Shown in pieces: positions 2,668 through 28,640 of a stretch of DNA of 64,000 nt. The stretch covers positions 1 through 64,000 of the forward strand of contig CAJIZA010000004.1 in the NCBI GenBank assembly GCA_905181815.1, in the 5' to 3' direction. The position numbers and the translations under genes are program-made. Each line of letters starts with the position of its first letter. Position 1 is the first letter of the stretch. The notes under the pieces are model-generated. The model did no database searches and was not told the DNA's origin. It saw only the letters and a program-made list of their open reading frames with translations. The DNA is from an uncultured Planktomarina sp. (GTDB lineage: Bacteria > Pseudomonadota > Alphaproteobacteria > Rhodobacterales > Rhodobacteraceae).

Positions 2668-2669
2668 AA

Positions 2670-6251: not shown

Positions 6252-6786
6252 GGAGTTTTGCTAACCAAATAGGAACAAGCATCAAATTTCTGGTGTAGCC
6301 TGAATCTATGCGCTCAATAATTGGCACCACTCAGTAAGAGCAGCGGTACGGTTCAGCTTGAAATTGGTGCGTGAATAGAGATGCAGTTACCAAACAAAAC
6401 TAATTCCAGATGAATCTACGCCGCTAACACTAAAGGACCAGCCTCCAAAGCACGGGACTCATGATCCGGGGTCCATGGTCCTGCACCCTTCGGCTTAGCT
6501 GTAGCGATTGGGCACCGTAACCCCCTGCCGTTGGTCCACGGACCACAGCCCGAGCAAAACCATCCAGCGCCAACTGAGCTCAGGCAACACGATAGTCAGG
6601 ACTTGGGTGGGTGCGTGCTCTACTGTCCGATAGTGCACTGGCTCTTGGTTCCCGGTCCACGGGCTTGAGCAATATGGTGTGATAACCAGGGGCCAGGTTT
6701 CATGTAGCAAAATGGGGAGTTTTTCGTCATCCAAAGACGCAATAAATTAGCCCTGCCTGTCTAAAGTGGTTTTGTGTGACAGTTCC
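6252..6786. mobile_element. Non-autonomous IS6-type element with foreign core (copy A)
   Basis: The left part (6252-6390) resembles the left end of the IS6 element at 25.5 kb, including the last 20 or so transposase codons read in reverse ('NFKLNR.AAL.EW.QLLSA'). The right part (about 6705-6786) resembles its right end ('aaatggggagt..ttagccctgcctg..gtgacagttcc'). Between them, in place of most of the transposase, is a core of roughly 320 bp starting 'atgcagttaccaaacaaaac'. This core recurs at 17.7 and 28.5 kb. It holds several short palindromes such as GGTCCacGGACC. No convincing gene lies inside. The minus-strand reading frame 6495-6734 is probably incidental. Confidence 0.65.
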
Positions 6787-6836
6787 AACTGTATTACATC
6801 ATCGCCATTTGGATGACTTCTGGGCCAGATTTTATT

Positions 6837-6872
6837 TAGCTAAATGGTGTGTGTTTTGTCATTAGGCGAGGT
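6837..6872. repeat. IS6-type right-end fragment (copy G)
   Basis: 'agctaaatggtgtgtgtttt' and the following 'gtcattaggcgaggtt' match the inner part of the right end shared by copies A, B and the IS6 element. It lies 50 bp beyond copy A, so two elements were probably inserted next to each other, or one was partly deleted. Confidence 0.45.
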
Positions 6873-7001
6873 TAAAAAGTCATCCACTCTGTCTCAGCCC
6901 GTTACTTCCAGCCAGGTCCATCTACATGTATCTTTATTTTCATTAGAAAAAGCTTTAAATGCAAATAAACAAAAAGGATAATGTTGTTCTAGGATTTTGA
7001 A

Positions 7002-7790
7002 ATGAAACTAAATGTACATGGTTGTCGAGGATCCGTTCCAGTGCAATCGAGGGGTCAGACAAGATATGGAGGTAATACATCTTGCTTCGAAGTTACTTTC
7101 GGTCAATTTCAAATTTTTTTTGATACTGGTACAGGCTTCAGAACAGCACAATTTGGTGGTCCTGAGATAACTAAAATATTACTTTACAGTCACTGGCATC
7201 ACGATCATGTCCAGGGTTTTGCATTTAATCCAAATATCTTTGTTCCAGATCATAAAGTTTTAGTTGCAAGCGGTCTATCGTCGGCTGACGTTAGTCGTCA
7301 GATGCTACAACAATATTTCTCAGGGAGCTATTTTCCAATTGACGTTATTGGGTCTTTAAAGAACATAATTTTTCATGAGTTTGAGTATATTAAAGAAAAC
7401 TTTATTAATGATTTTCGGCTAAATAATCTATCTCTCAATCATCCTGGAGGAGCATCAGGCTTTAGGTTAGAGCATAATAAAAAGATAATTTGCTACCTAT
7501 GCGATAATGAGTACCATGAGACACAACTTCCAGAATTAAAAGATTTTGTTGAGGGAGCAAATTGTGTAATTTGGGATGGGATGTTTACTGATGAAGAGTT
7601 ATCTCAAAAGAGGGGGTGGGGCCATTCATCAGTAAATCAAGGTATTGAATTTTGGGAAAAATGTGACGTTAAAAAACTATTGGTTACGCACCATGCACCT
7701 GAGCGAAACGATGATCAACTAGATGAAATAAATAACCAACTACCAGGTAATGTCGAACTGGCGTTTGATGGGATGTCATATGAGTTTTGA
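7002..7790 (+). CDS. MBL-fold metallo-hydrolase
   Basis: This is a 262-residue protein of the metallo-beta-lactamase fold, closest in layout to the PhnP/RNase Z-like group with an N-terminal 'GCRGSVPV' and 'RYGGNTSCFEV'. The metal motif HWHHDH is at residues 64-69. Further ligand candidates are H in 'LNHPGG', D in 'YLCDNEYH' and H in 'LVTHHAPERND'. It would be a soluble two-metal hydrolase; its substrate (phosphodiester, cyclic nucleotide or other) cannot be told from the sequence. It is followed directly by a cyclic-nucleotide-binding gene (9 bp gap), then by a convergent cyclase. The DNA here is clearly more AT-rich than the flanking core, suggesting transfer. Confidence 0.8.
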   Translation: MKLNVHGCRGSVPVQSRGQTRYGGNTSCFEVTFGQFQIFFDTGTGFRTAQFGGPEITKILLYSHWHHDHVQGFAFNPNIFVPDHKVLVASGLSSADVSRQMLQQYFSGSYFPIDVIGSLKNIIFHEFEYIKENFINDFRLNNLSLNHPGGASGFRLEHNKKIICYLCDNEYHETQLPELKDFVEGANCVIWDGMFTDEELSQKRGWGHSSVNQGIEFWEKCDVKKLLVTHHAPERNDDQLDEINNQLPGNVELAFDGMSYEF

Positions 7791-7798
7791 GATGGAAA

Positions 7799-8140
7799 AT
7801 GAAAAAAAAATCTTTTAGGCGTGGGCAAACAGTATTTAATAAAGGTGATGGAGCTAGTGAGCTATTTATAATTTCTTCAGGCAATATTGGCATCTATTTT
7901 CCATCTAATGCAGAAATGGAAAAGCCAGATATTGTGATAAGTAGCCCTGATTTATTTGGAGAGATGGCAGTAATCGATGACACTATGCGAATGGCTACCG
8001 CCAGAGCAGAGACTGAGTGTGTTCTTATTTCAGTAACGAGAGCTGAATTCGAAGACAAGTTAGCGAACACAGATGTTGTTATAAGAGGTGTGGTTGCTAT
8101 TTTGTCGGAACGCCTGCGTGACTTACAAAAAAGACGTTGA
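7799..8140 (+). CDS. Stand-alone cyclic nucleotide-binding domain protein
   Basis: The product has 113 residues from ATG 7799 (MKKKSFRRGQTVFNKGDGASELF); a TTG 12 bp upstream is possible. It is almost entirely a single cNMP-binding domain: 'F.KGD.ASELFIISSGNIGIYF', then the phosphate-binding cassette 'DLFGEMAVIDDTMRMATARAE', where canonical domains have FGE..L....RSAT. The Arg of the cassette appears as 'RMATARA', so binding is plausible but not certain. There is no DNA-binding or catalytic domain. It is probably co-transcribed with the MBL gene and may act as a cAMP/cGMP-responsive partner. A class III cyclase is encoded 200 bp away on the other strand. Confidence 0.8.
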   Translation: MKKKSFRRGQTVFNKGDGASELFIISSGNIGIYFPSNAEMEKPDIVISSPDLFGEMAVIDDTMRMATARAETECVLISVTRAEFEDKLANTDVVIRGVVAILSERLRDLQKRR

Positions 8141-11143: not shown

Positions 11144-11326
11144 GGACCTGTCAAACTAATGAAAACACGCCCCAGATTGCTAGCACAGCCTGAATCTATG
11201 CGTTCAATAATTGGCGCCACTCGCCAAGAGCAGCGGCTCGGTTCAGCTAAATGGCGAGTGTTTTGTCATGCACGGACGCTACAAACATACAATGCCCGCA
11301 TCAACCAAGTTTAATCTGACGGCGCC
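11144..11326. mobile_element. Miniature IS6-type element (copy D, 183 bp)
   Basis: The left end starts GGACCTGTCAAACTAATGAAAAC and carries the 'ctgaatctatgcgttcaata' block. It joins directly, near 11255, to a right end 'agctaaatggcgagtgtttt' that finishes '..tttaatctgacggcgcc'. Both termini are inverted relatives of those at 25455 and 26269, but the whole transposase interior and the foreign core are missing. It lies between the GYD-type gene and the AttH-like gene. Confidence 0.65.
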
Positions 11327-11347
11327 CCTTCAAGGTTGCAAAACCCA

Positions 11348-12379
11348 TCATTCATAGCCTGTCATCTCCAAATATCCAATCCCCGTGTGAGAACCGGTGA
11401 CGCGCACTGGCCCTTCCCAATATGGTACCGACGTATCCATCCAGCTTTGTGTGTTCAATGCCGTTACAACGATATCGATGCCCGCATCAGGCAACAGTAC
11501 CCTCCATGTGGTTGGCACATCACGTCCTGCAACTTGTGACTGCTTGATTGGTTCTGCGGTAAACGCTCCATCTGAATAAGCTACCGTTGCCCCTTCCTCA
11601 TCGATCAGCGTAGCTTGTGTAAAAACGCTGTCACCACGAAGCAAGAAGCCCATTAGCTTGGAGCCATCATCAAACGACAATGAAAACCAATCCCACCCAG
11701 TCTGATCCGATCCAAGAGGTTTCGAGGACCATTCACGGTCCAGCCACGCATCTCCAGTAACGTAAACATCGCCCAACGGCAATTGCAAAGTCCCCTCAAT
11801 TTTATAGAACGGTTGAGAGAAATAGTACGATGCTTGCCCCTCAGCCGATTTCAGCGAATACCCGGCGGTGCCGTGGAACACCCGCGGTCCAATTGCGTAC
11901 ATGGACATATCATAAGCAAAATTGGGCCCGGCAGCTCGCAAGACAGCGCCGCTATCTGGTCCAGAAAATATCCATTCATCAATCCATGCTTCAAACGGAT
12001 CTGCAGTCACACCTGCTTGCCCAATCCCACCCCGCGCCAACCGTTCAGCCACAAAATGCGCATCAGGCGTTGTCACAGCCGCATGTCCCATCCAAAGCTG
12101 CGGCGATGACCAACCTTCATAATCTTTCGGGGCCAGTGCAGTGCGAAACAAAGTCCATTGCAGGCCATAATCTTGTCCATCAGAGCCTTGCAAATTAGCT
12201 GTCAAATACCACCACTCTATCCTGAAATCTGGATGTGATCCGTCATCGGATGGAAATTGGAACGTTGGATTAGTTTCAGGCAACTTAAAACCTTCTGCAC
12301 CAGACCCAAGCCCCGCAAAGCCCTGCGCAAGACTGGTCACTGGCAGCCATAACAAAATAAAAATCAACTTAGCGTTCAT
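11348..12379 (-). CDS. Lipocalin-like / carotenoid 1,2-hydratase-type secreted protein (AttH-like)
   Basis: The protein has 343 residues with a clear signal peptide MNAKLIFILLWLPVTSLAQ, so it is exported. The mature part carries the CrtC/AttH lipocalin-like signature: 'FRIEWWYLTANLQGSDGQDYGLQWTLFR', 'MGHAAVTTPDAHFVAERLARGG' and 'VTGDAWLDREWSS.PLGSDQTGWDWFSLSFDDGS'. AttH-family proteins accompany an ABC exporter (AttE-AttF-AttG type) in many proteobacteria, as here: the gene overlaps the upstream FtsX-type permease by 11 bp. A role in handling an exported lipid-like molecule is inference. No carotenoid genes are present. Confidence 0.8.
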   Translation of the reverse strand: MNAKLIFILLWLPVTSLAQGFAGLGSGAEGFKLPETNPTFQFPSDDGSHPDFRIEWWYLTANLQGSDGQDYGLQWTLFRTALAPKDYEGWSSPQLWMGHAAVTTPDAHFVAERLARGGIGQAGVTADPFEAWIDEWIFSGPDSGAVLRAAGPNFAYDMSMYAIGPRVFHGTAGYSLKSAEGQASYYFSQPFYKIEGTLQLPLGDVYVTGDAWLDREWSSKPLGSDQTGWDWFSLSFDDGSKLMGFLLRGDSVFTQATLIDEEGATVAYSDGAFTAEPIKQSQVAGRDVPTTWRVLLPDAGIDIVVTALNTQSWMDTSVPYWEGPVRVTGSHTGIGYLEMTGYE

Positions 12380-14741
12380 TTGAAAATACCTTCAGCAAAT
12401 CAGCAGGTGGCATACGCACCAATTGCATGGCTGGCCATAGCGCCGCCAGCCCTGCGGCTAGTATCGCAAGCGCACCTAGCTGCGCATAATCCCATGGGAA
12501 CAGAAACATCGGCAGCCGCCACCCAAATGCTGCTACGTTGACCACCGCCAATAAAACCCATGCAAGCGCCAGCCCTAAAGGCAACGCAATTACACCCGTC
12601 AACAAGGCTAACATCACAGTCCGAAAAAGCTCAAGCAGCCCCAATTTCCAACGTGTCAAACCCATCGCCCAAGCAGGTGCAAGCTGTGGGACGCGCATCG
12701 CTGTTAAGGTCAATAAGCTCATTAAAATTGCAAATCCAGCAACCGACAATGTCAATATATTTAAGGCAGCGGTTACCGTAAATGTTCGGTCAAAGATTGC
12801 CAGAGAGTAGGCTTTTATGCTAGCCTGATTTACCACACTGCTTGCAGGTAGACCAGCTTCAGACTTAAGGCCTTCGACGAAGGCGTCCACATCTTCGAGC
12901 GGCAACCGTAGCCCAAATCTAAGTGCTAAAACATTTGGAAACAGGGTCTTAAATAGGGATTCTGCAATAATTGCCTGCCCAATTGGGTTGCCGTAGTCAG
13001 CATAAACACCAGCTATTTTCAACGGCTGTTGACCGATATTCACAACATCGCCCACTTGCAGATCAGCGCTGCGGGCGAGTTGTTCACTGATCAAAACCGC
13101 AGCGTCCGTATGGACGTCTTCCCAAGGGGTTAGCCCCGCAGTTAGGAATGTCCAATTATCACGATAGGTCGTATGATCGCGGGCGCCAAATACGTCTGTC
13201 GGACGACCTGAGATTTGCACCTGCGCTGACATGATTGGTAGTACGGCGTCAACTTGTGGAGTCATAAAATCGACCATATAAGCGGCCTGCTCGGGGCCTT
13301 CCGCTGTCACATAAAGCTCAGACGAAAGCCGTTGATCCAAGAACGCGACAAACGTCAGCCGAAAGCTACTAACCATCGTGGACACGCCCACATTGGTGGC
13401 CATAGCCAGCATTAACGCCATTAATGCCAACGACAAGCCAGGCAACTGTTGACGCGTGTCAGCCCAGAACCAACTGGCAATTACACCTCGGCTGTACTGG
13501 GCTACACCATCCAGTAAAACACGCAGAACGGTAGGCAAACCCAAAGCTGCACCAATCAATAACGCACCGAGCAATACAAAGCCTGTCAAGATTTCATCGG
13601 CGGTCAATCCCAAAACAAATGCAACAAGTAGCAATACGGCAGATGCAGCCACCTGCGCTTTTTCTCCACGACCTGCAATGACAGAGATTGCACGTGGCTG
13701 CGCCCCTACGTTCAATGGCATTCGCGACAGTTTCCACAATGCGGTGCTTGCGGCCAATACCGTGCCAAAGATTGAAATTGCCATGCCGGACGCCAACCAA
13801 ATCAGGCGCAACTTCAACGTGCCTACCACATCCGCTCCATAAAGCCCTCGCAATGTTGCAGACACATCTGGCATCAAGAAAGCCGCGATCAAATATCCCA
13901 GGCCAACACCAATCAAACCTGCGATCAACGCGAGCCACAGCAGTTCAACCACGATCAATAAGACTAGAAATTGCATCGGCACTCCAAGCGTACGCAAGGT
14001 CTGCACCGTTCCACGCCGTTGTTCAAAAGCCAGTCCAATCGCGCCCTGTACGATGAAAATACCGACCGCAAATGACAGCAATCCAAATGCGCTTAAGTTT
14101 AAATGAAAGCTATTTGTAAGCCGTCCAATGTCAGATCCACTTTGGGCAACTCGGCGGGTAAGCTCAGGTGCGATGTCTTCGAGTGATGCCTGGCCAAGCG
14201 GTTGTTCTGATCTAACGACCAGCGCATCAAATTCAGCTCGTCGGCCTAATAATACCTGTACAGTCCCAACGTCGGCTATCGCTGTCCCCGGTGCGATCGC
14301 TGGATCAAATTTCACACCGTCTAATAGGACATCTGGAGCCGCAATAATTCTCCCATCCGCTGAGATAAAACCCTGAAGGTCATTCATGTTAATCAAGCCA
14401 ATGGGAGCCATACCACCCGGTGCCGTCAATGGGTCCAAACCGATGAACCGCACATCACCAATGCGGCCTTCGATCACTGGGCTGACTAGCCAACCACCGC
14501 GGCGTAGCCTGACATAAGTGTCTTGCCCTATTGGCAGCCCATCGCGGTGCACAAGCCGATCAAATTGCGCCTCGCCTAATGTGGCAGAAGCCGCGTCATA
14601 GCTTGCGCGCGCTTCTGCATTGATAGCCTGTACGCCAGACCAAAGCGCAGTCGCCAATGCGAGCCCTGCAAGCAAGGTAAACAATTGCAGCGGACTGCGC
14701 CACCAATGCCCCCACAACGCTGCGAAGGTAACTGCTATCAT
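12369..14741 (-). CDS. FtsX-family ABC transporter permease (AttF/AttG-like)
   Basis: This is a 790-residue inner-membrane protein with an N-terminal membrane helix ('LFTLLAGLALATALWSGVQAI'), a periplasmic region, a FtsX-type helical block near 210-340, a middle group near 365-470, a second periplasmic MacB-like domain and a final FtsX block with four helices ('ALNILTLSVAGFAILMSLL', 'LLTGVIALPLGLALAWVLL', 'AILAAGLAALWPAMQL'). The duplicated FtsX arrangement is typical of lipoprotein/lipid-type extruders of the LolCE/MacB superfamily. It overlaps the ATPase gene by 4 bp and the lipocalin gene by 11 bp, so the three are one operon. Confidence 0.85.
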   Translation of the reverse strand: MIAVTFAALWGHWWRSPLQLFTLLAGLALATALWSGVQAINAEARASYDAASATLGEAQFDRLVHRDGLPIGQDTYVRLRRGGWLVSPVIEGRIGDVRFIGLDPLTAPGGMAPIGLINMNDLQGFISADGRIIAAPDVLLDGVKFDPAIAPGTAIADVGTVQVLLGRRAEFDALVVRSEQPLGQASLEDIAPELTRRVAQSGSDIGRLTNSFHLNLSAFGLLSFAVGIFIVQGAIGLAFEQRRGTVQTLRTLGVPMQFLVLLIVVELLWLALIAGLIGVGLGYLIAAFLMPDVSATLRGLYGADVVGTLKLRLIWLASGMAISIFGTVLAASTALWKLSRMPLNVGAQPRAISVIAGRGEKAQVAASAVLLLVAFVLGLTADEILTGFVLLGALLIGAALGLPTVLRVLLDGVAQYSRGVIASWFWADTRQQLPGLSLALMALMLAMATNVGVSTMVSSFRLTFVAFLDQRLSSELYVTAEGPEQAAYMVDFMTPQVDAVLPIMSAQVQISGRPTDVFGARDHTTYRDNWTFLTAGLTPWEDVHTDAAVLISEQLARSADLQVGDVVNIGQQPLKIAGVYADYGNPIGQAIIAESLFKTLFPNVLALRFGLRLPLEDVDAFVEGLKSEAGLPASSVVNQASIKAYSLAIFDRTFTVTAALNILTLSVAGFAILMSLLTLTAMRVPQLAPAWAMGLTRWKLGLLELFRTVMLALLTGVIALPLGLALAWVLLAVVNVAAFGWRLPMFLFPWDYAQLGALAILAAGLAALWPAMQLVRMPPADLLKVFSNER

Positions 14742-15394
14742 TCGATTTGACCTACCCGCAAGTGTACTCGACTATCTAAACGCGCAGCGAGAGCCGCCGA
14801 ATGTGTGACCATTAAAAGACCCGCGCCTGCCTCTGTCACAAGCGACAACAGCATATCCATGACATTTGAAGCTGTCTCTTCGTCCAAATTTCCAGTCGGC
14901 TCGTCCGCCAATACCAACCGAGGTCGAGACGCCAAAGTACGGGCAATCGCTACCCGCTGTTGTTGACCTCCAGACAATTGCTCAGGGTATTTTGCCACCT
15001 GCGACGACAACCCGAAGTGGTCGATCAGTACGTCGACCCAATCGGCATCGTACTTCCCTGCAAGCCGCGCCTGAAACTCAATATTGGACGCAACTGTAAG
15101 GCTAGGGATAAGATTGAATTGCTGGAATACAATGCCAACTGTCCCGCGCCGAAGCCATGCGCGACCCGCATCGTCCATGGCTAAAATGTCGGCGCCATCA
15201 ATAAAAATTTGCCCCTGATCGGCTGAATCTAATCCACCAATTAAATGCAATAGTGTACTTTTTCCGCTACCTGACTCACCCGTAAGTGCAAGGCTTTGGC
15301 CACTATCTAGCGACAGATCAACACCACGAAGGACGGCAGTACGACCACCGACCGCCTCGAATGTTTTGTGCACTTCTCGCGCTGTAAGCAGCAT
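14738..15394 (-). CDS. ABC transporter ATP-binding protein, LolD/MacB type
   Basis: This is a 218-residue ATPase. The Walker A motif GESGSGKST is near residues 38-46. It has 'VGIVFQQFNLIPSLTV' (Q-loop), the signature LSGGQQQRVAIARTLA and Walker B 'LVLADEPTGNLDEET'. The 'PTGNLD' and 'FNLIPSLTV' forms are characteristic of the LolD/MacB/FtsE group that works with FtsX-type permeases. It is the first gene of the operon ATPase-permease-lipocalin. The likely role is export or extraction of a hydrophobic molecule from the inner membrane, with the AttH-like protein as periplasmic acceptor or modifier (inference). Confidence 0.88.
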   Translation of the reverse strand: MLLTAREVHKTFEAVGGRTAVLRGVDLSLDSGQSLALTGESGSGKSTLLHLIGGLDSADQGQIFIDGADILAMDDAGRAWLRRGTVGIVFQQFNLIPSLTVASNIEFQARLAGKYDADWVDVLIDHFGLSSQVAKYPEQLSGGQQQRVAIARTLASRPRLVLADEPTGNLDEETASNVMDMLLSLVTEAGAGLLMVTHSAALAARLDSRVHLRVGQIE

Positions 15395-15457
15395 GTCAAC
15401 ACCTTCCGTTCTGACAACAAGCTAGCACAGACAGCCCAATTGGAAAGTTGAACCAGT

Positions 15458-15580
15458 GATGCTGTCAGCACCAACGCAAACAACCATCGGATTACCAGCA
15501 CAACTTTCATCTACGCGGCCAATAGTTGGCGCCACTCAGCAAGAGCAGCGGGGCAGTTAATTTTATTCTGACGCTACTGT
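15458..15580. repeat. Degenerate miniature IS6-type element (copy E)
   Basis: Starting at 'gatgctgtcagc', the segment contains 'gcggccaatagttggcgcca', continuing into 'ctcagcaagagcagcgg', the left-end block of the family, and runs into a shortened right end 'taattttattctgacgctac'. It is the most diverged copy I can recognise. Boundaries are approximate. It lies just upstream of the ABC-exporter operon. Confidence 0.5.
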
Positions 15581-16875: not shown

Positions 16876-17005
16876 ATCAACACCGTGTTTAACACTCAGA
16901 TTCTGCACTAGAAAAAGTCAGAAAGCTAGAAAAAACTGTGCTAGAGGTGTGCTACGCACAAACTGCGTCAACCGAAAACTTAAGTAACTGATTATATTGA
17001 AAGTT

Positions 17006-18112: not shown

Positions 18113-18123
18113 AGCGGTGGAGA

Positions 18124-18230: not shown

Positions 18231-18352
18231 GGCGGTTTTGGGCAGAAAGCGACATCTGCCGCAAGTGTAAACCAATCGTCCTAAGACTTGGGGAGCCGAC
18301 GTTCGTCCAGTCTTGAAATCAAATTTTGTGCTGCATCACCACCTATCTATCT

Positions 18353-19837: not shown

Positions 19838-21237
19838 TGACCTGAAGCTTTCCAGTAGTCGGCAAAAATATCCTCAACCTTTGGCTCACGCGCGGGGATT
19901 TCGCGGATGATTTTAACGGTCTGCATGAAGTGTTTCCAATGCACGTTATCATCAATCGAATTGCCGCCCCAAGATCCGCACCCCATCGAAAGGGAAAACG
20001 GCATGCCATTGGTGAATGATCCACCCGTGGCAAAGGTGTGGGCCTGATTAACGATGACACGACATGTAGGGATGAGCGTGCCAATCTCGATAGGGCGGTC
20101 CGCATTTGCCGTATGGATGCCAACAGAGTGACCGGCCCCTTGAAACGCCATGATGCGCTGCGTAATATTCACTGCAGCGTCGAAGTCAGCTGCGCGGTAA
20201 AGTGCTGCAACCCGCGACAGCTTCTCACCCGACAATGGATGATCCGGCCCTATTCCCGTTGTCTCAACGGCAAGGAACTTGGTGTCGGAGGGCACGGTGC
20301 CCTCTATTTCCAGCGCTTCCAGCATTTTGTCAGCGTCTTGTGCGATGACGGAGCGGTTCAGATGTCCGGCGGGCCACAGCTTGGCGACAATCGCGGCTTC
20401 ATCCGTGATTCGCGCGCCGCCCGCCTTTGCCAGTGCCACGATGAAATCATCATAGACTGCATCAACCACAACGATTGAATTCTCGGATGAGCAGGAGGTT
20501 GCATTGTCGAATGTTTTGGATGCGGTGATCTTCTGGGCGGCGTCATCCAGATCGCAGGTTTCATCCACAATGACGGTGACGTTGCCTGCCCCCACGGCCA
20601 AGGCCGGTGTGCCAGAGGTGTAGGCCCGTTTGACGTTATTTTGGGATCCGGTCACGACGATCAGATCGCTGATCTCAAGCAGGCGTTGGGTTTTTTCTTT
20701 GCTGCCCTTGCCACGGACCATCTGCACCAGATCACGGTCCTCGCCGATCTTGTCGAATTCTGCATGGATATAGCCGATCAGGACTTCACAGGCGGGAACG
20801 CCTTTTGGGGAAGGCGACAGCACGATTGCATTGCCGCATTTGAGCGCGTTGATAATGTTGTTTGCAGGCGTTGCCGCAGGGTTGGTCGAGGGAACAACTG
20901 CGCCGATCACGCCGATGGGGCGAGCGATCTGCGTGATCCCTGTTTCGGCATCTTCGCTGATGATGCCGTGTGTCTTGGCCGTCGCGATATCGCGCATCAG
21001 ACCCAGCGTTTTGCGATGGTTTTTGGTTATCTTATCGGGAACATTGCCCAAGCCGGTCGTCTCCACCGCCAATTCAGCAAGGTGGGTGTTGCGCGTAGGT
21101 TCCATAATCGCCCATGCTGCGGCCTGAGCAGCACGATCATACCTGAGTTGCGAACCATGCGCCTCAAAGCGCAGCTGTGCGGAACGCGCACTCGCGACAG
21201 TAGCTTCTACTTCGGCGATGTCATCAATAACGGTCAT
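19834..21237 (-). CDS. sauS: Acylating aldehyde dehydrogenase, SauS-like (sulfoacetaldehyde dehydrogenase)
   Basis: The 467-residue protein is a CoA-acylating NAD(P)-aldehyde dehydrogenase. The catalytic Cys is in 'FDNATSCSSEN' near residue 249, and the cofactor-site 'GVIGAVVPSTNPAATPANNI' is near 109-128. The second 'ALAVGAGNVTVIVDET' is typical of the SauS/EutE/AdhE subgroup. In sulfoacetate degradation it reduces sulfoacetyl-CoA to sulfoacetaldehyde, which Xsc then cleaves; xsc is not in this window. It overlaps sauT by 4 bp, and tctC lies 76 bp upstream in transcription order. A different acyl-CoA substrate remains possible. Confidence 0.78.
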   Translation of the reverse strand: MTVIDDIAEVEATVASARSAQLRFEAHGSQLRYDRAAQAAAWAIMEPTRNTHLAELAVETTGLGNVPDKITKNHRKTLGLMRDIATAKTHGIISEDAETGITQIARPIGVIGAVVPSTNPAATPANNIINALKCGNAIVLSPSPKGVPACEVLIGYIHAEFDKIGEDRDLVQMVRGKGSKEKTQRLLEISDLIVVTGSQNNVKRAYTSGTPALAVGAGNVTVIVDETCDLDDAAQKITASKTFDNATSCSSENSIVVVDAVYDDFIVALAKAGGARITDEAAIVAKLWPAGHLNRSVIAQDADKMLEALEIEGTVPSDTKFLAVETTGIGPDHPLSGEKLSRVAALYRAADFDAAVNITQRIMAFQGAGHSVGIHTANADRPIEIGTLIPTCRVIVNQAHTFATGGSFTNGMPFSLSMGCGSWGGNSIDDNVHWKHFMQTVKIIREIPAREPKVEDIFADYWKASGQ

Positions 21238-21313
21238 GTCGTGCTGTATCCTATTGATTTTGTTGTAATCTTCACCCGTTGGTACGGGTGAAAATCAAGT
21301 TCATTGTGAGATA

Positions 21314-22282
21314 CTACAGACCTGCGAGCAGCTCTTTCAGAGTTTCTTCACGTGCTGCCCACATGGCAAGGACCTCGTCGCGGTTCATCACATGCATTGG
21401 CGATCCGCCAGCTTTCATCTTACCCGCGACGCGGCTGTTCTCGAACATGGTCGGTACAGTCGCTGCCAGCTTGTCGATGATGCCCTGTGGCGTACCCTTT
21501 GGCACCATTACACCGCGAAAGTTCACGGATGCATTGTCCACGGCCAGACCGCTTTCCATCATCGTTGGCACGTCAGGCAAGAACTCGTTGCGCTCAAGAT
21601 CAGCCACGGCAAGGATTTTGACGTTACCTGCCTGTGCCGCACGGAATGCGTCTGACAGGTTGTTGATGCCTGCCATAACGTCGCCCGCAATGACTGCTTT
21701 CATCGCAGCGGCACCGCCGCCTTTGGTAGGGATGTAGGCCATTTTCATGTCGCCCGCTTTTTCCATCTGGAGTGCTGCGATGTGGTGGCCCACAAACAGA
21801 CCAGCACCCGATGTGGTCAGCTTGCCAGGGTTCGCCTTGGCAAAATCGACCACGTCCTGAAGCGTGTTGAACTCACTGTCTTTGCCGACGACCAGCACAG
21901 CAGGATCAGCGCCCCAGTTTGCAATCGGCTCAAACGACGCGGTGCTATACTCGACGCCGCCCTTGATCGACTGTGCGATAAAATGGGGAACGTTGTACGC
22001 CCCTAGTGTATAGCCGTCTGCCTCTGCTTGTCCCGCTAGCCAGTTCCAGCCAACACGACCGCCAGCACCCGGCTTGTTCAGAATTGCGATGGGCATACCC
22101 AAAGCATCCTCGTTGCCAGATGTCATGGTGACAATGCGGGCCTGAAAATCTGTGGCACCGCCGGCACCGTAGCTGACCATCATCATGATGGGACGTTCTG
22201 GATAGTTGGCATGACCGTCAGCAGCTGCTGTTTGGGTCAGGCCCATGAGGGCAATCGCTGCCCCTGCAAGTAAAGTCTTCAT
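21314..22282 (-). CDS. Tripartite tricarboxylate transporter substrate-binding protein (TctC family)
   Basis: The protein has 322 residues with signal peptide MKTLLAGAAIALMGLTQTAAA. The mature domain shows the Bug/TctC pattern: 'YPERPIMMMVSYGAGGATDF' and, later, 'ILNKPGAGGRVGWNW' and 'VGKDSEFNTLQDVVDFAKANPGK'. It would capture a carboxylate in the periplasm and present it to TctAB. The operon partners suggest sulfoacetate, but the ligand is inferred. It lies 41 bp after tctB. It is intact. Confidence 0.85.
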   Translation of the reverse strand: MKTLLAGAAIALMGLTQTAAADGHANYPERPIMMMVSYGAGGATDFQARIVTMTSGNEDALGMPIAILNKPGAGGRVGWNWLAGQAEADGYTLGAYNVPHFIAQSIKGGVEYSTASFEPIANWGADPAVLVVGKDSEFNTLQDVVDFAKANPGKLTTSGAGLFVGHHIAALQMEKAGDMKMAYIPTKGGGAAAMKAVIAGDVMAGINNLSDAFRAAQAGNVKILAVADLERNEFLPDVPTMMESGLAVDNASVNFRGVMVPKGTPQGIIDKLAATVPTMFENSRVAGKMKAGGSPMHVMNRDEVLAMWAAREETLKELLAGL

Positions 22283-22322
22283 TGTCGTTCCTCCCTTGGA
22301 TGAATTCTGCCGCTTGTGCGGT

Positions 22323-22793
22323 TCAGAAAAATATCTCTCGCGGTGTGTAAACTTTGAGTAATAGTGCGAAGAGACCGTACATAACGGCCATGAAGCAGGC
22401 CGTTGTGATGATGCGCTTAACCCATGATTTCAGCACCCTGTGGGGGGCCGGATCATACAGGCTGAGCAGAATAAAAAATGCGATTGACGTGGCAGTGTAG
22501 AATCCCAATCCCTTGGCTGCCCAGAAGATATAGATCAGCGCGATGATCAGGCCGGGTGCAAGATTCTTGAACTGCGTCAAGGATATGCCATTACCGACTT
22601 TGGTCCATCCAAGACAGGCTTTTACGAATGTCCAAAGTGCCAGAACCACAAACACAGTCGCGATGAGGCGCGGAAACAGGAACGCCTCTGATGGCTGCTG
22701 CGTATAGCTGATGTAGCAGACGGATGCGCCCACAGCGGCGACAATACCGGACCCGATGATATGTTGAAAACGCGGCAATGTGATGTTGCTCAT
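22323..22793 (-). CDS. Tripartite tricarboxylate transporter small permease (TctB family)
   Basis: This is a 156-residue membrane protein with four predicted helices, roughly at 11-28 ('IIGSGIVAAVGASVCYIS'), 37-58, 75-100 and 130-150. TctB subunits are poorly conserved and are recognised by size, four helices and position. The gene overlaps the tctA stop by ATGA and precedes tctC. It would assist the large TctA permease. Confidence 0.8.
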   Translation of the reverse strand: MSNITLPRFQHIIGSGIVAAVGASVCYISYTQQPSEAFLFPRLIATVFVVLALWTFVKACLGWTKVGNGISLTQFKNLAPGLIIALIYIFWAAKGLGFYTATSIAFFILLSLYDPAPHRVLKSWVKRIITTACFMAVMYGLFALLLKVYTPREIFF

Positions 22794-24302
22794 CCCATGA
22801 TCTCCTCTTTAGACGTATAGCGCCGCGCCCGAAGTTCCATATATCCCGAGTAGAGTACCGACAGGACGACAACCGCGATGAGGAACAGGTTTAACGGACC
22901 GGTAAAGAAATAAGGAGCCAAGCCGTCAGTCGCAGTGGCAATCATGCTGCCTTGGATGAAGTTGGATTCTGCTATTGGCCCAAGGATCAGACCAAGCACC
23001 AGGGGGGCTGCGGAAAATCCAAATCGTTCAAGAAAATACATCATCACCCCGAGCGAGGCCATGACATAGACATCCCCCATGCTGGACTGGACCGAGTAGC
23101 TGCCAAAAACAGCAAGGCCCAGAACGATCGCTGCCATCATCGACTGCGGCACTTGCGCAACCCGTGCCGCCATTCCAGCCACATAGAGGCCGAAAATACA
23201 CATCAGGATCTGCCCGATCAGCATGGAGTTGATGAACGTCCACGCCACGTCAGGGTGATTGTCAAACAGATCAGTTCCCGGAAAAATACCGTGGATCAGC
23301 AATCCACCAAGGAGAACTGCCGCGGTGGGCGATCCCGGAATTGAGAGCGTGAGCAGCGGCACCAGCGATGGGCCAACCATCGCGTTGTTTGCAGATTCAG
23401 CAGCGATCAATCCCTCAGGATGGCCTGTTCCAAATTTGTCTTTGTCAGGGCTGAATTTCTTGGATTGATCGTAGGCCACAAGACCAGCAATCTGACCGCC
23501 GACGCCGGGGATAAGCCCGATGATTGAGCCGGTAATCGTGCCGATGCCCATCGCGCGCTTATAGCGCAACAGTTCCGAGACTGCGCTCTTGATCGGATGC
23601 TTTTGCACTTGGATTGCTTCGGTGCCATCGTTTTTATGGCCTTTTGCGAACATGGTGATCACCTGAGGTATCGCAAACAACCCGATCAAGGCCGCGATGA
23701 TGTTAATACCGCCGCCCAAAGAGGGATGGAATATGAAACGCTGCGCTCCCATGATGTCGTCAAAGCCGATTGTCGCGAGCCACAGACCTATACAGCCTGA
23801 TAGCAACCCTTTGACGACCGAGGCAGAGTCGAGCGATCCGATCACTGTCACGCCGAGGATCGCAAGCCAGAACAAATGGCTGGGACCAAAGGCGAGCGCC
23901 CATTGGGCCAAGACAGGCGTCAGAAAGATCAGCAAGAGCACACCAAAAACACCACCAACAGCCGAGGATAGGAATGACAGCTGCAGCGCCTTTGCCCCCT
24001 CACCATTGAGGGCCATCGCATGGCCATCTAGTGTGGTTGCGATGTTGGCAGGTGCCCCCGGAATCTTAAGTAGGAATCGCCGAAACTGCGCCGCCTGCAA
24101 CAGTTGACGTATAAGCCGCACCCAACAGGATCAAACCTTGGGCCGCCTCAAGCTGGAAGGTGAAGGGGATCAGTAGAGCGACTGCCATGGTCGGCGACAA
24201 TCCTGGAGTTGCGCCAAGGATTAACCCGCCGATAGTGCCGAGTAAGAGCAAACCAAAGTTGATCGGTGTGAAGACATCACCAAAGTAGTAGATAAATTCC
24301 AT
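22790..24302 (-). pseudogene. Tripartite tricarboxylate transporter large permease TctA, frameshifted
   Basis: The start MEFIYYFGDVFTPINFGLLL is at 24302. The open frame ends at 'TSTVAGGAVSAIPT'. The continuation 'KIPGAPANIATTLDGHAMAL' to the C-terminus lies in another frame starting near 24075. The family has 'GAAY.GS..GG..SAILLNIPG.P' here, so the break falls in a conserved loop. One extra base (or a two-base loss) near 24067-24075 accounts for it: 1513 nt against 1512 expected. Everything else is as in a 503-residue TctA with multiple helices. If real, the importer of this operon is inactive. Confidence 0.85.
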
Positions 24303-24334
24303 TCAGTAGCGTCCCAAGTCACCTTATGTTGACC

Positions 24335-24387
24335 TTTGAGGTTAAGTGATGAAAATAGTAATGCAAATGTTTTCATAAAACCTCAAA
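24335..24387. promoter_or_regulatory. Nested palindrome in the tctA/lacI-type divergent promoter
   Basis: Within the 98-bp gap between the divergent tctA and regulator genes, TTTGAGGTT (24335-24343) pairs with AACCTCAAA (24379-24387). Inside it, ATGAAAA (24349-24355) pairs with TTTTCAT (24370-24376). The two have almost the same centre (near 24361). A divergent position next to a LacI-family gene makes this the best candidate for its operator or operators, but the long spacing is unlike one LacI half-site pair. Confidence 0.55.
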
Positions 24388-24400
24388 TATTGGCGCTTAA

Positions 24401-25435
24401 ATGTATGATAGTAATAAAAATAAGGTTGATATCTTTGCTGTTGCAAAACGGGCGAACGTCTCTATTTCAACGGTTTCGCGTTCTTTCAACCATCCTGAAC
24501 TGGTCAATCCCGCGACTCGCAAAAAGATTGAACGAGCGGTGCGTAAGCTGGGGTATATCCGCAATCGTGCCGCTCAAACCATGCACGGTATCCGCAGCGG
24601 TACGATTGGTTTGGTCGTTCCTACCATCGACCACGCAATTTTTGCTGAAGTGGTCCAAGCCTTCTCGGACAGCGTCGACGCGCACGGCTTTACCATTATG
24701 ATCGCCTCTCATGGTTACGATTTGGAGCGGGAATACGCCGTCTTGCGCAAGTTCCTTGAACACCGTGTCGATCCACTCCCTCTGATTGGCGAAGACCATT
24801 CACAAGAGACCTACGAGCTTATTGAACGCCAGAACATTCCGGCTGTGACAATGTGGAATTATAGCGAGACTTCTCGGCTTTCCTGTATTGGTGCTGACAA
24901 TAAAATGGCGGGGGTATTGGCCGCACAACATCTTGTCGGTCTTGGACATAGGGATATTGGCCTTCTCTTCCCTCCGACCAAAGACAATGATCGGGCGCGC
25001 GACAGGCGCAGCGGGGTGCAGAAAATCCTCCTTAACGCGGGTATCAACATTAATCCTGACTTGGATGTTGAGAGCACCTATAGCATCGCAGACGCGAAAT
25101 CCGCCGCCTTGCACCTTTTGCGAAGTCCGCATAGGCCAAGTGGAATACTATGTGGCAATGATGTTCTGGCGATGGGTGTGCTGTATGCTGCGCGCTCCTG
25201 TAACCTGGACATTCCTCAAGACCTTTCAGTTGTCGGGATCGGGGATTTTAAAGGCTCAAGTGAAGTAGAACCGGGCCTGACAACTGTCCGCTTGCCTGCT
25301 CGGGAAATAGGGCGTTTGGCGGGGAACCACCTCAGCCAGTCGATAACGGGTGATTTGACGAACGAGCAAAGGGTTGGATGCGACATCGCGTTAATTGAAC
25401 GCGGCACCTGTAAACCTCACTTTGGCGTATCGTGA
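24401..25435 (+). CDS. LacI-family transcriptional regulator (probably SauR-like)
   Basis: The 344-residue protein has an N-terminal helix-turn-helix 'DIFAVAKRANVSISTVSRSF' at about 10-29 and the hinge 'YIRNRAAQTM' near 52-61. A periplasmic-binding-protein-type sensor domain follows ('TIGLVVPTIDHAIFAEVVQA', later 'LCGNDVLAMGVLYAARS' and 'VVGIGDFKGSSEVEPGLTTV'). It is divergent from the sulfoacetate-type operon and so likely its regulator, as regulators of this type accompany sau genes. An inserted-looking 'DPLPLIGE' where 'DGIALIGE' is usual is noted. It is followed after 20 bp by the IS6 element. Confidence 0.85.
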   Translation: MYDSNKNKVDIFAVAKRANVSISTVSRSFNHPELVNPATRKKIERAVRKLGYIRNRAAQTMHGIRSGTIGLVVPTIDHAIFAEVVQAFSDSVDAHGFTIMIASHGYDLEREYAVLRKFLEHRVDPLPLIGEDHSQETYELIERQNIPAVTMWNYSETSRLSCIGADNKMAGVLAAQHLVGLGHRDIGLLFPPTKDNDRARDRRSGVQKILLNAGININPDLDVESTYSIADAKSAALHLLRSPHRPSGILCGNDVLAMGVLYAARSCNLDIPQDLSVVGIGDFKGSSEVEPGLTTVRLPAREIGRLAGNHLSQSITGDLTNEQRVGCDIALIERGTCKPHFGVS

Positions 25436-25454
25436 TGACCTTTGGTCCCTCGAC

Positions 25455-26269
25455 GGTGCTGTCAAACTAATGAGAACTCGCATCAGATTGATGGCGCAGC
25501 ATAAATCTATGCACTCAATAATTGACGCCACTCAGCGAGAGCCGCGGCACGGTTCAGCTTGAAATTGGTGCGTGAATAGAGATGGCGTTCCTGGTTGAAA
25601 TGGTTCTGGACTGAAGAGTAGACGGCAGCGAACTTTTGCAGAATCGCATCTGTCGAAAGCGGAGCATGGCGCGTTCTTGTCGTCGAAACGGCAAATAGGA
25701 ATTCTCAGCCCGATTATTTACCCAGCGGCCCGTTTCCAGCCGATCCGCGTTGCCAACAACTTTCATTGCAGCTCCATAGGAACGTAGTTTGTCCGTCACT
25801 ACTACTTCTGGTCCGCCATAGCGCTTCATTGCTTTTTTGAATAATTTCAATGCTGCATTGCGGTCTCGGCGCTTGGTTACATAACTTTCAAACACCTCAC
25901 CTTCGTGATCTACTGCCCGCCAGAGGTAATGCGTCTCTCCATTGATCTTCACGAAAACCTCGTCCAGGTGCCACTGCCAGTTCGAATATGATCTCATCCG
26001 ACTAACCCGGTTTTTTCGTATCTCAGCAGCAAACATCGGACCAAATCTATTCCACCAAAACCGAACTGTTTTGTGCCTGATCTCAATGCCTCGTTCATGC
26101 AAAAGATCTTCCACGTTACGAAGTGAGAGCGGGAAACGAACATACAGCATCACAGCCAGACGGATGATCTCGGGGCTCGCTTTAAAGTACCTGAATGGGG
26201 AGTGTATTGTCACACGGCGTGGTTACAAATTAGCCCTACCCGTCTCAAGCAGTTTTCTCTGACAGTGCC
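25455..26269 (-). mobile_element. IS6-family insertion sequence, about 815 bp
   Basis: The inverted ends are GGTGCTGTCAAACTAATGAG (25455) and, read inward on the other strand, GGCACTGTCAGAGAAAACTG (26269). They share GG..CTGTCA. The 815-bp length and single transposase fit the IS6/IS26 family. I see no clear 8-bp target duplication (left flank ccctcgac, right flank cgcccgcc), and the right flank carries another piece of a right end (copy H). It is the only copy with a nearly complete transposase and so the presumed parent of the shortened copies. Confidence 0.8.
25507..26213 (-). pseudogene. IS6-family transposase, C-terminal frameshift
   Basis: The start MTIHSPFRYFKASPEIIRLA leads into a DDE domain. 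Acidic residues include D of 'WQWHLDEVFVKINGETHYLW', D of 'VVTDKLRSYGAAM' and E of 'NNRAENSYLPFRRRE'-like sequence; the helix-turn-helix lies upstream ('RNVEDLLHERGIEIRHKTV'). After 'ERAMLRFRQMR' one base is missing near 25640. The true end 'LQKFAAVYSSVQNHFNQERH', then 'LNRAAALAEWRQLLSA', is in another frame and stops at 25507. The catalytic triad precedes the shift, so partial activity cannot be excluded. Confidence 0.8.
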
Positions 26270-26310
26270 CGCCCGCCTACTTCAATCTAGTTTAATCTGA
26301 TAGTTGCAAG
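26270..26310. repeat. IS6-type right-end fragment (copy H)
   Basis: 'gcctacttcaatctagttta' and then 'atctgatag' matches the outer right end seen at 11295-11326 and 18090-18112, directly after the intact element. It suggests repeated insertion at one place, or an older element replaced by a newer one. Confidence 0.4.
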
Positions 26311-26345
26311 CAGAGGGTTTACCAACGTTCGATAATTTTTTTTGG

Positions 26346-26924
26346 TTATCTAAATACTGGTCCATGCGCCCATAGTGTGAGCGAATAGCGGACCCCACTT
26401 TGTACTGGTGCTACCTGATGCAATGTAAAACTAGGAAAGACACTTACACAGCCTTGGCCGCGGTTGGCAGATAGTATTTGGGCGCTTGGCATAACCTCGA
26501 GGTCACCTCCTTCATAAGAATCTGGCTCGCTGAGCTGTAGGACGAGTGTAAGCTTACGCTTGCGCGCCAAAATGCCTTCGCCAACGTCAGAATGCCACGC
26601 AAAGTGACCATTATCAGACGCATCATATCTTGCTACCTGAGGGCTTTCAGCGAATTCGCGAAGATCAAAATCAAATTGATCAATATTGGAAATACGGATG
26701 ATTTCAATCAACCGATCCATGACCCAGCCAAGTCCATCGACCTCATCAAGCCATACCAAACTTGCAGTCCGTAGTGCAGGGTTTCTTTTTTGCTGCACAA
26801 GCATAGCATTTTTGAAAGGTACTGCGGTTATAGCCGCAATGATCCTACCACATTCACCCGCACTAAATGCCTCTGGCTTGGAATAGAGAAGTTTAATTTC
26901 ACACTCCTGTGTGTTTGTGGGCAA
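26346..26924 (-). CDS. 2-oxoglutarate/Fe(II)-dependent hydroxylase
   Basis: This is a 192-residue soluble enzyme of the prolyl 4-hydroxylase/PKHD-like fold. The iron ligands are H111-x-D113 ('FAWHSDVG') and H169 ('PSFTLHQVAPV'). R179 ('GVRYSLTLWAHG') would bind 2-oxoglutarate. The length and the 'YEGGDLEVMPSAQILSANRG' strand pattern fit PiuC/PKHD-type enzymes. The substrate is unknown. It ends 36 bp before a cytidylyltransferase gene and reads in the same direction, so it may modify a lipid or headgroup made by that gene and the divergent phosphatidyltransferase; this is inference. Confidence 0.8.
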   Translation of the reverse strand: MPTNTQECEIKLLYSKPEAFSAGECGRIIAAITAVPFKNAMLVQQKRNPALRTASLVWLDEVDGLGWVMDRLIEIIRISNIDQFDFDLREFAESPQVARYDASDNGHFAWHSDVGEGILARKRKLTLVLQLSEPDSYEGGDLEVMPSAQILSANRGQGCVSVFPSFTLHQVAPVQSGVRYSLTLWAHGPVFR

Positions 26925-26960
26925 GAACCATTTTAATAAGGGGGCAACTTCAAGCGACCC

Positions 26961-27392
26961 TTAATATGGTTCAGCGCAGACATTGCGTTGCTCCAGCACC
27001 ATCTCTTTGATTTTCGTGGATGACGTACGTGAGTTATAGCGCACCTGTACTATTTCTTTCCCCATCTCTTTCAGGTAGCCGGAAACATCCAGATTGTGGG
27101 AATTACACCCCCAATCTTCACCTATCACAAAAATATCTGCCCCCACTGCTTTGCATCCAGACACATATTCTAATGTGTGATACGGGCGTACAATATCAAC
27201 ACAGCTAAGCGCTTCTAGCATCTCAACCCTCTGCTCTAATGGAATAATCGGTATGTTTAGCTTGTACTGGTTCACGACATCATCAGAGGCTACGCCAACT
27301 GCCAAAATATCGCCTAAAGATTTACAGTGGTTCAACAAGGCCAAATGGCCGACGTGAAGCAGGTCGAAAGTACCAACGGTATATACAATCAT
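26961..27392 (-). CDS. Cytidylyltransferase, glycerol-3-phosphate type
   Basis: The 143-residue protein starts 'MIVYTVGTFDLLHVGHLALL', with the nucleotidyltransferase HxGH at H14-H17. It has 'AVGVASDDVVNQYK' and the second nucleotide-binding motif 'RTSSTKIKE'. It is the size of TagD/GCT enzymes, which make CDP-glycerol, CDP-ethanolamine or CDP-choline-like products from CTP. The exact alcohol is not set by sequence. It is divergent from a CDP-alcohol phosphatidyltransferase, a natural user of such products, with a 383-bp gap holding a tandem duplication. Confidence 0.85.
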   Translation of the reverse strand: MIVYTVGTFDLLHVGHLALLNHCKSLGDILAVGVASDDVVNQYKLNIPIIPLEQRVEMLEALSCVDIVRPYHTLEYVSGCKAVGADIFVIGEDWGCNSHNLDVSGYLKEMGKEIVQVRYNSRTSSTKIKEMVLEQRNVCAEPY

Positions 27393-27432
27393 TTTCGGTT
27401 TATCCTTTTACCCACCTGGCTTCGATGATAGC

Positions 27433-27720
27433 GATCAAGAACAGAGTCTTCTCGTGCGTACAGTTAGTAAATTATTCACAAACAATTGCGTTGATATGTC
27501 TCCACACGCTCAGGCGTACGGAGTAGCTTAAAGTTTTGAAACCATACGTTTCAAATGCACTACGAATGGAAATAGAGATCAAGAACAGATTCTTCTCGTG
27601 CGTACAGTTAGTAAATTATTCAGAAACAATTGCGTTGATATTTCTCCACACGCTCAGGCGTACGGAGTAGCTTAAAGTTTTGAAACCATACGTTTCAAAT
27701 GCACTACGAATGGAAATAGA
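27433..27720. repeat. 144-bp tandem direct duplication with palindrome
   Basis: Two adjacent 144-bp copies (27433-27576 and 27577-27720) differ at only a few positions (agagtc/agattc, attcac/attcag, gatatg/gatatt). Each contains TTTGAAAC-CATAC-GTTTCAAA, a perfect 8-bp inverted repeat with 5-bp spacer. They fill most of the promoter gap between the divergent cytidylyltransferase and phosphatidyltransferase genes and end 55 bp before the latter's start. They contain no coding frame. A duplicated operator is the simplest reading. Confidence 0.85.
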
Positions 27721-27775
27721 GATTGCCTGTCGAGTTTTTACGAGCAGCCAGTCCTCATAACCCAAAGGATGTCAC

Positions 27776-28426
27776 ATGACAATCAAAAACGGCGCCGCGC
27801 CAAAACCTCCGATACTGTCATACGCCAAAGATCTACCAAACATTTGCTCACTCGCGGGATTGGGATGTTCCTTGTTGGCGATATATTTTTTGATCATCGG
27901 GTTCTATCCTGCTGCGATGATAGGCATGATTTGGGCTGTTGGGTTTGATTGGGCGGATGGATTGATTGCCCGCAGTATGAAGGGACGCACAGGCGATGAC
28001 CGTGCCTTCGGTGGCACGCTTGATCTATTAATAGATATCGTAAGTTACGGCATTACACCCGCTATTTTAATCCTAAGTTTTGGAGATTTCAGCCCATGGT
28101 TTTTGCCTGTTGTGTTTATCACCTTAGTTTCCGGTGTGATCCGTTTGAGCTATTTCAGCACATTCGGTTTGTCAGATGATGCAAAATACACAGGACTTGC
28201 GATTGACAATAACAGCATCAGCCTCGTTTTTATTGTAATGTTTGCAGATTATTTTGAACATTCCACATTCGCTATTATCCTTGCCTTAAGCGGACTATGC
28301 CTAGCAGCTTTGAACGTCTCTCAAATCAAGACGCCTAAACTTTCTGGAAACCCAATTAATGTTGTAGTTCTTGCCGTGTACACACTAATGACAACTTTAT
28401 TTTATGCCTGGTCCATGCTGCGATGA
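27776..28426 (+). CDS. CDP-alcohol phosphatidyltransferase (PssA-like)
   Basis: This is a 216-residue inner-membrane enzyme with about six helices (for example 'NICSLAGLGCSLLAIYFLIIG' near 23-43, and helices to the end). The signature DG.xAR..G..xD...D is present as 'DWADGLIARS' followed by 'FGGTLDLLIDIVSYG'; the spacer between AR and the GGTLD group is four residues longer than in the basic motif. This form occurs in PssA/PE-synthase-like enzymes that make phospholipids from CDP-activated alcohols or CDP-diacylglycerol. The acceptor is undetermined. It may use the product of the divergent cytidylyltransferase. Confidence 0.85.
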   Translation: MTIKNGAAPKPPILSYAKDLPNICSLAGLGCSLLAIYFLIIGFYPAAMIGMIWAVGFDWADGLIARSMKGRTGDDRAFGGTLDLLIDIVSYGITPAILILSFGDFSPWFLPVVFITLVSGVIRLSYFSTFGLSDDAKYTGLAIDNNSISLVFIVMFADYFEHSTFAIILALSGLCLAALNVSQIKTPKLSGNPINVVVLAVYTLMTTLFYAWSMLR

Positions 28427-28436
28427 TAAATGAAAA

Positions 28437-28640
28437 AATCGCTTCAAAATTGATGCGTGAATAGAGATGCAGTTACCAAACAAAACTAATTCCAGATGAA
28501 TCTACGCCGCTAACACTAAAGGGCCAGCCTCCAAAGCACGGGACCCTATGATAGGGGGGGCCACTGGCGCCGATTGCAGCTGAACCGTAGCGATTAGGCA
28601 CAGTAACCCCTGCCGTTGTTCCCCGGACAGCAGCGCATTT
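28437..28640. mobile_element. Partial non-autonomous IS6-type element (copy C)
   Basis: It starts 'gcttcaaaattgatgcgtga', continues with the core 'atgcagttaccaaacaaaac', 'taattccagatgaatctacg', and 'gggaccctatgataggg', the same order as copies A and B, and breaks off near 28640 ('ccccggacagcagcgc'). No right end follows. The core is closer to copy A in its first part. It begins 11 bp after the stop of the phosphatidyltransferase gene. Confidence 0.65.

Follow-up and report, generated by a model that had tools for sequence, protein, structure and literature searches.

What are the repeats that recur along this DNA, in which the ends of an insertion sequence (IS) of the IS6 family adjoin a core of other origin? 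The window (64,000 nucleotides of contig CAJIZA010000004.1 from an uncultured Planktomarina sp., Rhodobacteraceae) carries one IS6-family element and three such repeats, here termed copies A, B and C. An earlier note, made from the letters alone, had regarded the three as non-autonomous IS6 elements that share a foreign core. By comparison with other genomes (denoted by G numbers, and individual loci by L numbers), A, B and C are best read, with a probability of roughly 0.6, as chimeric recombination joints between cargo blocks in the tRNA-anchored islands of a Planktomarina-like lineage of Rhodobacteraceae.

Copies A and B share a core that is foreign to the IS

Alignment and a repeat search of the window revealed that A and B have approximately 320 bp in common, for which the IS6 transposase gene has no counterpart. 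The resemblance greatly exceeds chance expectation: when 17703-18050 was searched against the own genome, 13 matches were returned, of which two covered the IS6-end part alone, and A was recovered at E 4e-60. The 815-bp IS6 element proposed at 25455-26269 was borne out, its transposase matching DDE_Tnp_IS240 (PF13610) at 120 bits. It was likewise confirmed that a foreign core replaces the middle of the transposase, since the transposase gene contains nothing that matches the core, and that a simple internal deletion is excluded, the core having a history of its own and two modules that are also found apart. A core of about 320 bp had been described for all three copies. This description stands for A and B and not for C, as C holds only the left half of the core (termed CL, 28477-28611) together with approximately 23 bp of the next module (CR). 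Both the left (LE) and right (RE) IS6 ends are present in A, in agreement with the description, the left tip being degenerate. For B and C the described left end had to be corrected to a remnant of merely 21-29 nucleotides (nt), beyond which B is without a left end and C without either tip. The palindrome CCCTATgATAGGG, which had been reported for the core, was found in B and C and is missing from A.

6252-6786, plus strand: copy A, with LE 6252-6389, CL 6391-6524, CR (model span 6522-6715) and RE 6690-6786
17703-18112, plus strand: copy B, with a 21-nt LE remnant, CL 17724-17857, CR, and RE 18015-18112
25455-26269, plus strand: IS6-family element of 815 bp, its transposase open reading frame (ORF) at 25554-26213 on the minus strand
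28447-28634, plus strand: copy C, with an LE remnant 28447-28475, CL 28477-28611 and about 23 bp of CR

The core comprises two modules with varied partners

Models were made from aligned copies for LE, LB, CL, CR and RE and for the island-end (att) modules ARM, T3 and T4. By this approach the core was resolved into CL on the left and CR on the right, each of which also occurs without the other. CL spans approximately 135 bp between the borders CAAACAAAAC (start) and GTAACCCC (end). Its usual left partner is LE or LB, the latter a 70-bp piece with unrelated sequence before it, and its usual right partner is an att module or CR, with CR often followed by RE. In a set of 55 unique full CL copies, which includes three from other genera, the partners were LE-ARM (15 copies), LE-CR (14), LE-T3 (4), LB-ARM (4), LB-CR (4), LE-T4 (3) and others (11); therefore, the left and right partners of CL combine freely. 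In the 15 LE-CL-ARM copies the best conserved sequences were GTAACCCC and the repeated TGTGGGTAG arms (mean identity 0.93-0.94), and TGTGGGTAG arms also precede an integrase ORF in G008. At tRNA-Met, T3 matched weakly, and the survey downstream of CL places it before tRNA-Thr. An explanation of the copies with only a left half by one passenger inserted in mid-core was dropped; many of their right-hand sequences are att modules of different tRNAs.

In several arrays (L062, L078, L082, L074 and L087) the att fragment is succeeded by much the same sequence, which in L062 reads TGTTCACTTCC..GCATCC; it may represent the end, on the integrase side, of the tandem island that comes next.

When 17703-18050 was used as a DNA query against 61 genomes (own, genus, family and class), 12 matched, all in the genus (12/20). 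The sequence-only CL model, for which 150 first-look candidates were scored per genome, matched 15 of the 20 genus genomes with 119 matches in total. At family scale, with stricter filters, CL was detected in 9 of 394 genomes and 8 of 393 genera, the own genus included, and the exact CL pattern was present in 19 named-record stretches of Planktomarina and other Rhodobacteraceae, including Ascidiaceihabitans and Yoonia. LE-core-RE elements were found in several genus genomes and in one genome of another genus. The core is not confined to fixed orthologous sequence that lacks IS6 ends; some copies have these ends and others do not. No match to 17703-18050 was detected in plasmids and phages, and viral contigs contained neither the CL nor the arm pattern in exact form.

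CL copies that face the 3' ends of tRNA genes

The CL matches of at least 40 bits (n = 97; 22 of the 119 genus matches were under 40 bits and left out) were surveyed for tRNA genes up to 900 nt downstream and up to 300 nt upstream. An intact tRNA gene was found downstream of 17 of the 97 copies, in 17 of 17 cases on the opposite strand with its 3' end facing CL, and a tRNA 3' fragment downstream of another 16; seven copies had too little sequence. No tRNA was detected within 300 nt upstream of the 97 copies, and none on the other strand downstream. As a control for the fragments, the 80 copies without an intact tRNA were compared on both strands: 16 fragments lay on the expected strand (one of which, 692 nt off, may be chance) and 1 on the other, with 1, 1 and 0 in shuffled sequence and 0 upstream. 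The distance from CL to the tRNA mostly goes with tRNA identity, at 103-106 bp for Ser, 105 bp for Arg, 141-146 bp for Phe (once 117), 210-213 bp for Thr and 238-239 bp for Met (once 362, and 522 for copy C). A tRNA or fragment was reached by 25 of 30 copies typed as ARM, T3 or T4 and by 0 of 27 typed as CR, and the left-only core copies run into tRNA genes. In other genera CL was found ahead of tRNA-Ser, -Met, -Phe and -Thr; in one such genome, G132, no LE was recognised beside it. As CL faces tRNA 3' ends at distances that mostly vary with the tRNA, it is read as belonging to the tRNA-side end of integrase-type islands. These comparisons show the tRNA-side island ends at tRNA-Ser, -Arg, -Thr, -Met and -Phe to have CL as a conserved component.

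A tRNA-Met island in the window and a complete island in G011

The tRNA-Met gene of the window stands twice, with an identity of 87 bp, at the two sides of the stretch that holds B, the IS and C.

16793-17051, plus strand: att-type island-end module made up of about 210 bp and 48 nt from the 3' part of tRNA-Met; multi-copy in G003 and G011
17004-17090, minus strand: tRNA-Met(cat) repeat 1, 87 bp, gene 17006-17082
29131-29217, minus strand: tRNA-Met(cat) repeat 2, 87 bp, gene 29133-29209, with conserved backbone on its right

An empty site was found in G011 (L163), where the sequences that flank the island on the left (16793-17090) and on the right (29131-31162) join at a single tRNA copy. The corresponding stretches of G001 and G003 have one tRNA-Met at that site and different left-hand sequence. 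Because of the 87-bp repeats and the joined flanks in a relative, the 12.1-kb stretch (17,004-29,217) is taken to be an island. Copy C lies ahead of the second tRNA-Met and is turned to its 3' end.

No integrase ORF was seen at the left end of the window island. Right after tRNA copy 1, at 17100-17640, a frame that soon stops contains the letters ASIRKRNG, which we take to be a typical integrase start; it is followed by a frame that resembles a short-chain dehydrogenase by eye and is common with G008 from 17165 on. An integrase start near 17143 was rejected, as its frame stops about a dozen codons later, leaving a remnant at most. It is possible that 17100-17640 represents an integrase remnant cut by a cargo joint.

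In a complete island of G011, a repeat of the 3' part of tRNA-Met lies at 2826622, just ahead of an integrase (PF13356, PF00589), and the intact tRNA-Met is 43.9 kb off, with LE-CL-T4 directly before it. Since LE-CL-T4 adjoins the intact tRNA and the integrase is at the other end, CL marks the island end far from the integrase.

Elsewhere in G011, two regions 83.5 kb apart (C1:2428870-2434899 and C1:2512409-2518436) have ORFs of nearly equal lengths in the same order, one set before an integrase and one before tRNA-Arg; these look like duplicated island ends.

Cargo blocks adjoin different neighbours, with breaks inside the repeats

In seven comparisons, the same cargo was found with a different neighbour and a break inside a repeat, five of the breaks being in or at an IS6 end and two in CL. 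The break between A and G003 lies at approximately nt 20 of LE (cargo 1533-6355 at 92%), that between G011 and G003 at approximately nt 33 of LE (1.7 kb of cargo at 98%) and that between two G003 loci at approximately nt 32 of LE. For the mini-element at 11144-11326, which opens a cargo block also found on contig C5 of the own genome (1.7 kb at 97%), the break is its left tip; for G003 compared to G011, it is near the CR/RE border. The breaks in CL were observed between G001 and G011 (from approximately nt 60 of CL on, with 3.1 kb in common at 98%) and between B and G008 (at the CL end; 692 bp at 97%). Three breaks are thus some 20-35 nt from the left IS6 tip, and beyond them the partners are approximately 80% alike. 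In a comparison of flanks, for which 95 of the 97 CL copies had enough sequence, 14 pairs of CL copies had homologous left flanks; both right sides could be typed in seven pairs, and in four of these they differed, always as CR versus an att module. Cargo blocks 11339-15456 (G008, 82%) and 26280-28456 recur in relatives and end at repeats.

2-56, plus strand: LE fragment (nhmmer and window repeat search)
6822-6903, plus strand: additional partial RE, after A
11144-11326, plus strand: mini-element of 183 bp, an IS6 left end fused to a right end, coreless
11327-15463: cargo block flanked by two repeats (Pfam CrtC and FtsX/MacB)
15464-15560, plus strand: LE fragment
26280-28456: cargo block from the IS6 element to C, with a 95% counterpart on contig C1 of G003

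Within the last of these blocks, a 144-bp sequence stands in direct tandem (27428-27715, 97% identity) between two cargo genes and is single copy in G003. Further along the window, a bacterial small signal recognition particle RNA gene (Rfam RF00169) was found at 46573-46671.

We propose that IS6 copies and CL serve as portable homology, mostly directly oriented, and that cargo blocks would be swapped when like IS6 ends react, as in the targeted conservative exchange of IS26. Homologous recombination in CL would be an alternative or additional route, and the breaks in CL suggest it as a second one. When CL-att is replaced by CL-CR-RE, an island end would become an internal joint and its cargo would join a longer array.

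The same breaks could have arisen by host homologous recombination alone, acting among old dead repeats with the IS6 transposase now idle. Co-orientation might then persist because inverted copies get lost or cause inversions. The two breaks in CL and the many partial repeats are consistent with this, as is the transposase of the window, the C-terminus of which is apparently frameshifted: the protein has 219 residues, relatives align to residues 1-193, and many relatives have open 238-aa frames. By contrast, IS6 ends contain or border five of the seven breaks, three of which cluster close to the left tip, with the partners only some 80% alike past them, and G011 is among the relatives in which the 238-aa frame is open. 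We consider this explanation possible, yet rather less probable than exchange joints that also involve the IS6 ends.

Target duplications are lacking and neighbours are co-oriented

If the core had been captured once between IS6 ends and the resulting LE-core-RE unit copied in trans by the IS6 transposase, the copies would be transposons in the usual sense. The occurrence of two-ended core elements in several genus genomes and in one genome of another genus, and the relatives with open 238-aa transposase frames, are in favor of this view. According to the accessible text of the literature on IS26-type elements, their copy-in route is accompanied by an 8-bp duplication. For a test of such duplications, 44 LE..RE elements with both tips were used, A being left out as its tip is too degenerate. 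One of the 44, a mini-element, had flanks that agreed at 6/8 or more without any shift, compared to 0.5% of shuffled pairs. This was seen for none of the 8 core elements, all from relatives and two of them the same site in two genomes, and for none of the 18 elements with transposase sequence. The mean 8-bp flank match was 2.4 versus 2.1 for shuffled pairs. When shifts of up to 3 were allowed, with no control, 4 of 44 elements reached 6 or 7 of 8, minis only, and the flanks of copy A match by eye at 3/8. No empty site for A, B or C was detected among the matches listed of 20 genomes, and swapped neighbours were seen at A and B.

Orientation was counted in seven G011 blocks picked for matches to the full G011 element, which as a query gave 62 matches in G011, clustered, to itself or its IS6 ends. 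In the blocks as fetched, adjacent elements were co-oriented in 67 of 73 pairs and 69 of 80 elements followed the block majority. When blocks were cut at orientation switches, 75 of 77 were co-oriented, the exceptions being a complete IS and a transposase fragment; this count leaves out two minus elements (G011 1258-1259.6 kb) and a single one at 338.8 kb. The window repeats (n = 8) are all on the plus strand and point at tRNA 3' ends; four of them, at 2-56, 6822-6903, 11144-11326 and 15464-15560, had been overlooked in the first reading.

The suggestion that the core travels on IS6 ends is not supported by these results. Besides the rarity of flank matches and the co-orientation of neighbours, some cores have on their left LB, or nothing recognised as an IS6 left end, the core halves also occur with other partners, and the flanks of the elements are re-used cargo blocks rather than simple targets. 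Transposition of a core-bearing IS6 unit is accordingly regarded as improbable.

In four places (L065, L064, L076 and L071, about 1500-1613) the left tip of IS6 adjoins an att fragment. In three of these contacts the tip immediately follows GTGGC or GTGGT, which gives the impression of a site preferred or re-used by IS6.

Cassette exchange and a structured RNA

A new site-specific cassette system, in which a recombinase acts on CL as an integron integrase does on attC, would account for the sharp CL borders common to different partners, for the mostly fixed distances to att and for arrays that are unidirectional over long stretches. The breaks are scattered, however, over LE (approximately nt 20 and 32-33), the mini-element tip, CL (approximately nt 60), the CL end and the CR/RE border; as the seven fall at about six different places, there is no fixed crossover point, and we hold a cassette system to be very improbable.

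The view of the core as a structured RNA gene within the element, prompted by its short GC-rich palindromes, is hardly credible and was rejected for CL, as RNAalifold on 52 CL copies (1 of 53, L022, was dropped as a near-copy of L029) gave a consensus of 3 pairs at -1.9 and -2.5 kcal/mol on the two strands, the forward energy being 3.3 standard deviations below column shuffles owing to a 3-pair hairpin (reverse, 1.4), and Rfam returned nothing at the core at gathering score.

Weighing the proposed recombination joints

Several observations weigh against A, B and C being recombination joints in tRNA-anchored islands. No tRNA or fragment was present within 900 nt of 57 of the 97 CL copies, 5 of the 30 att-typed copies had none, and the CL copies at one tRNA in different genomes are possibly orthologues, so that the counts are not independent events. 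In G011, no tRNA was found in the sequence read at 775-812 and 1170-1330 kb, and the block at 1255-1330 kb switches orientation twice between 1258 and 1326 kb (minus, plus, minus). Among the seven breaks, the two in CL are outside IS6 ends, some are blurred because the swap partners are alike, and the comparison of two G003 loci has merely approximately 240 bp of cargo in common. The own genome (91.7% complete) gave three transposase matches at E<=1e-40, none clearly intact. Finally, transposase and RecA routes would both be compatible with the breaks, exchange being deduced from sequence comparison.

Relation to known systems

IS26-type arrays contain directly oriented copies with different cargo, and targeted exchange at like ends proceeds without duplication of the IS, according to the accessible text of PMC7885326 and PMC7986276. 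The arrays described here appear to fit this pattern of targeted exchange. They are similar to IS26 arrays and translocatable units in their direct orientation and in the varied cargo between copies. They differ in that they occupy tRNA islands of marine bacteria, not resistance regions, in that many copies are non-autonomous with island-end sequence, and in that the reaction is read from sequence.

Derivatives with IS6 ends and without a full transposase are known as miniature inverted-repeat transposable elements (MITEs) and transporter IS (tIS). The 183-bp LE-RE mini-element is similar to these; by contrast, the interior of A and B is not IS-derived, and target duplications are lacking. In its accessible text, a review of the IS6 family names a single member with a passenger gene (PMC7986276).

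Integron gene-cassette arrays consist of directional cargo with repeated joints between. The arrays here are similarly directional and separated by repeated joints, and unlike integron arrays they have long joints and no fixed crossover nucleotide, a difference established without a search for an integron integrase.

Known islands targeted to tRNA genes include those with P4-type integrases. Like such islands and tycheposons, those analysed here have repeats of tRNA 3' ends, tandem cargo blocks and, in G011, a tyrosine integrase at the far end; unlike them, they have one 135-bp module common to the tRNA-side ends of five tRNA families, and IS6 ends at internal joints. Additive flexible genomic islands with tRNA 3' repeats, and tycheposons, are described in the accessible text of PMC10872708, and a phage of the Roseobacter clade-affiliated (RCA) group integrates at tRNA-Met(CAT) according to that of PMC6918029. 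No description of the joints analysed here was found among the papers listed in searches of the accessible literature on Planktomarina islands, insertion sequences and tRNA/integrase, from which subscription papers are mostly absent.

Meaning for Planktomarina and its relatives

CL, at 135 bp, stands at a near-fixed distance to the att sites of five tRNA families and occurs in eight genera. One tentative idea, which we regard as unlikely, is that a shared island system uses CL as a functional cis-acting site. CL would then be a portable adaptor linking integrase islands with block exchange of the IS6 type. If this were true, cargo would swap its att module at CL and so gain a new integration target, and when att is swapped for an IS6-ended joint, the cargo would be locked into an array.

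The means by which streamlined pelagic bacteria assemble and trade their variable genes are an open question, and in these genomes the joints are visible, can be typed and can be compared across species. They suggest that island ends become internal joints, and that an IS6-type element may act like IS26 outside the resistance setting. CL provides a simple sequence handle for finding such islands, and the question of transposase versus RecA becomes testable.

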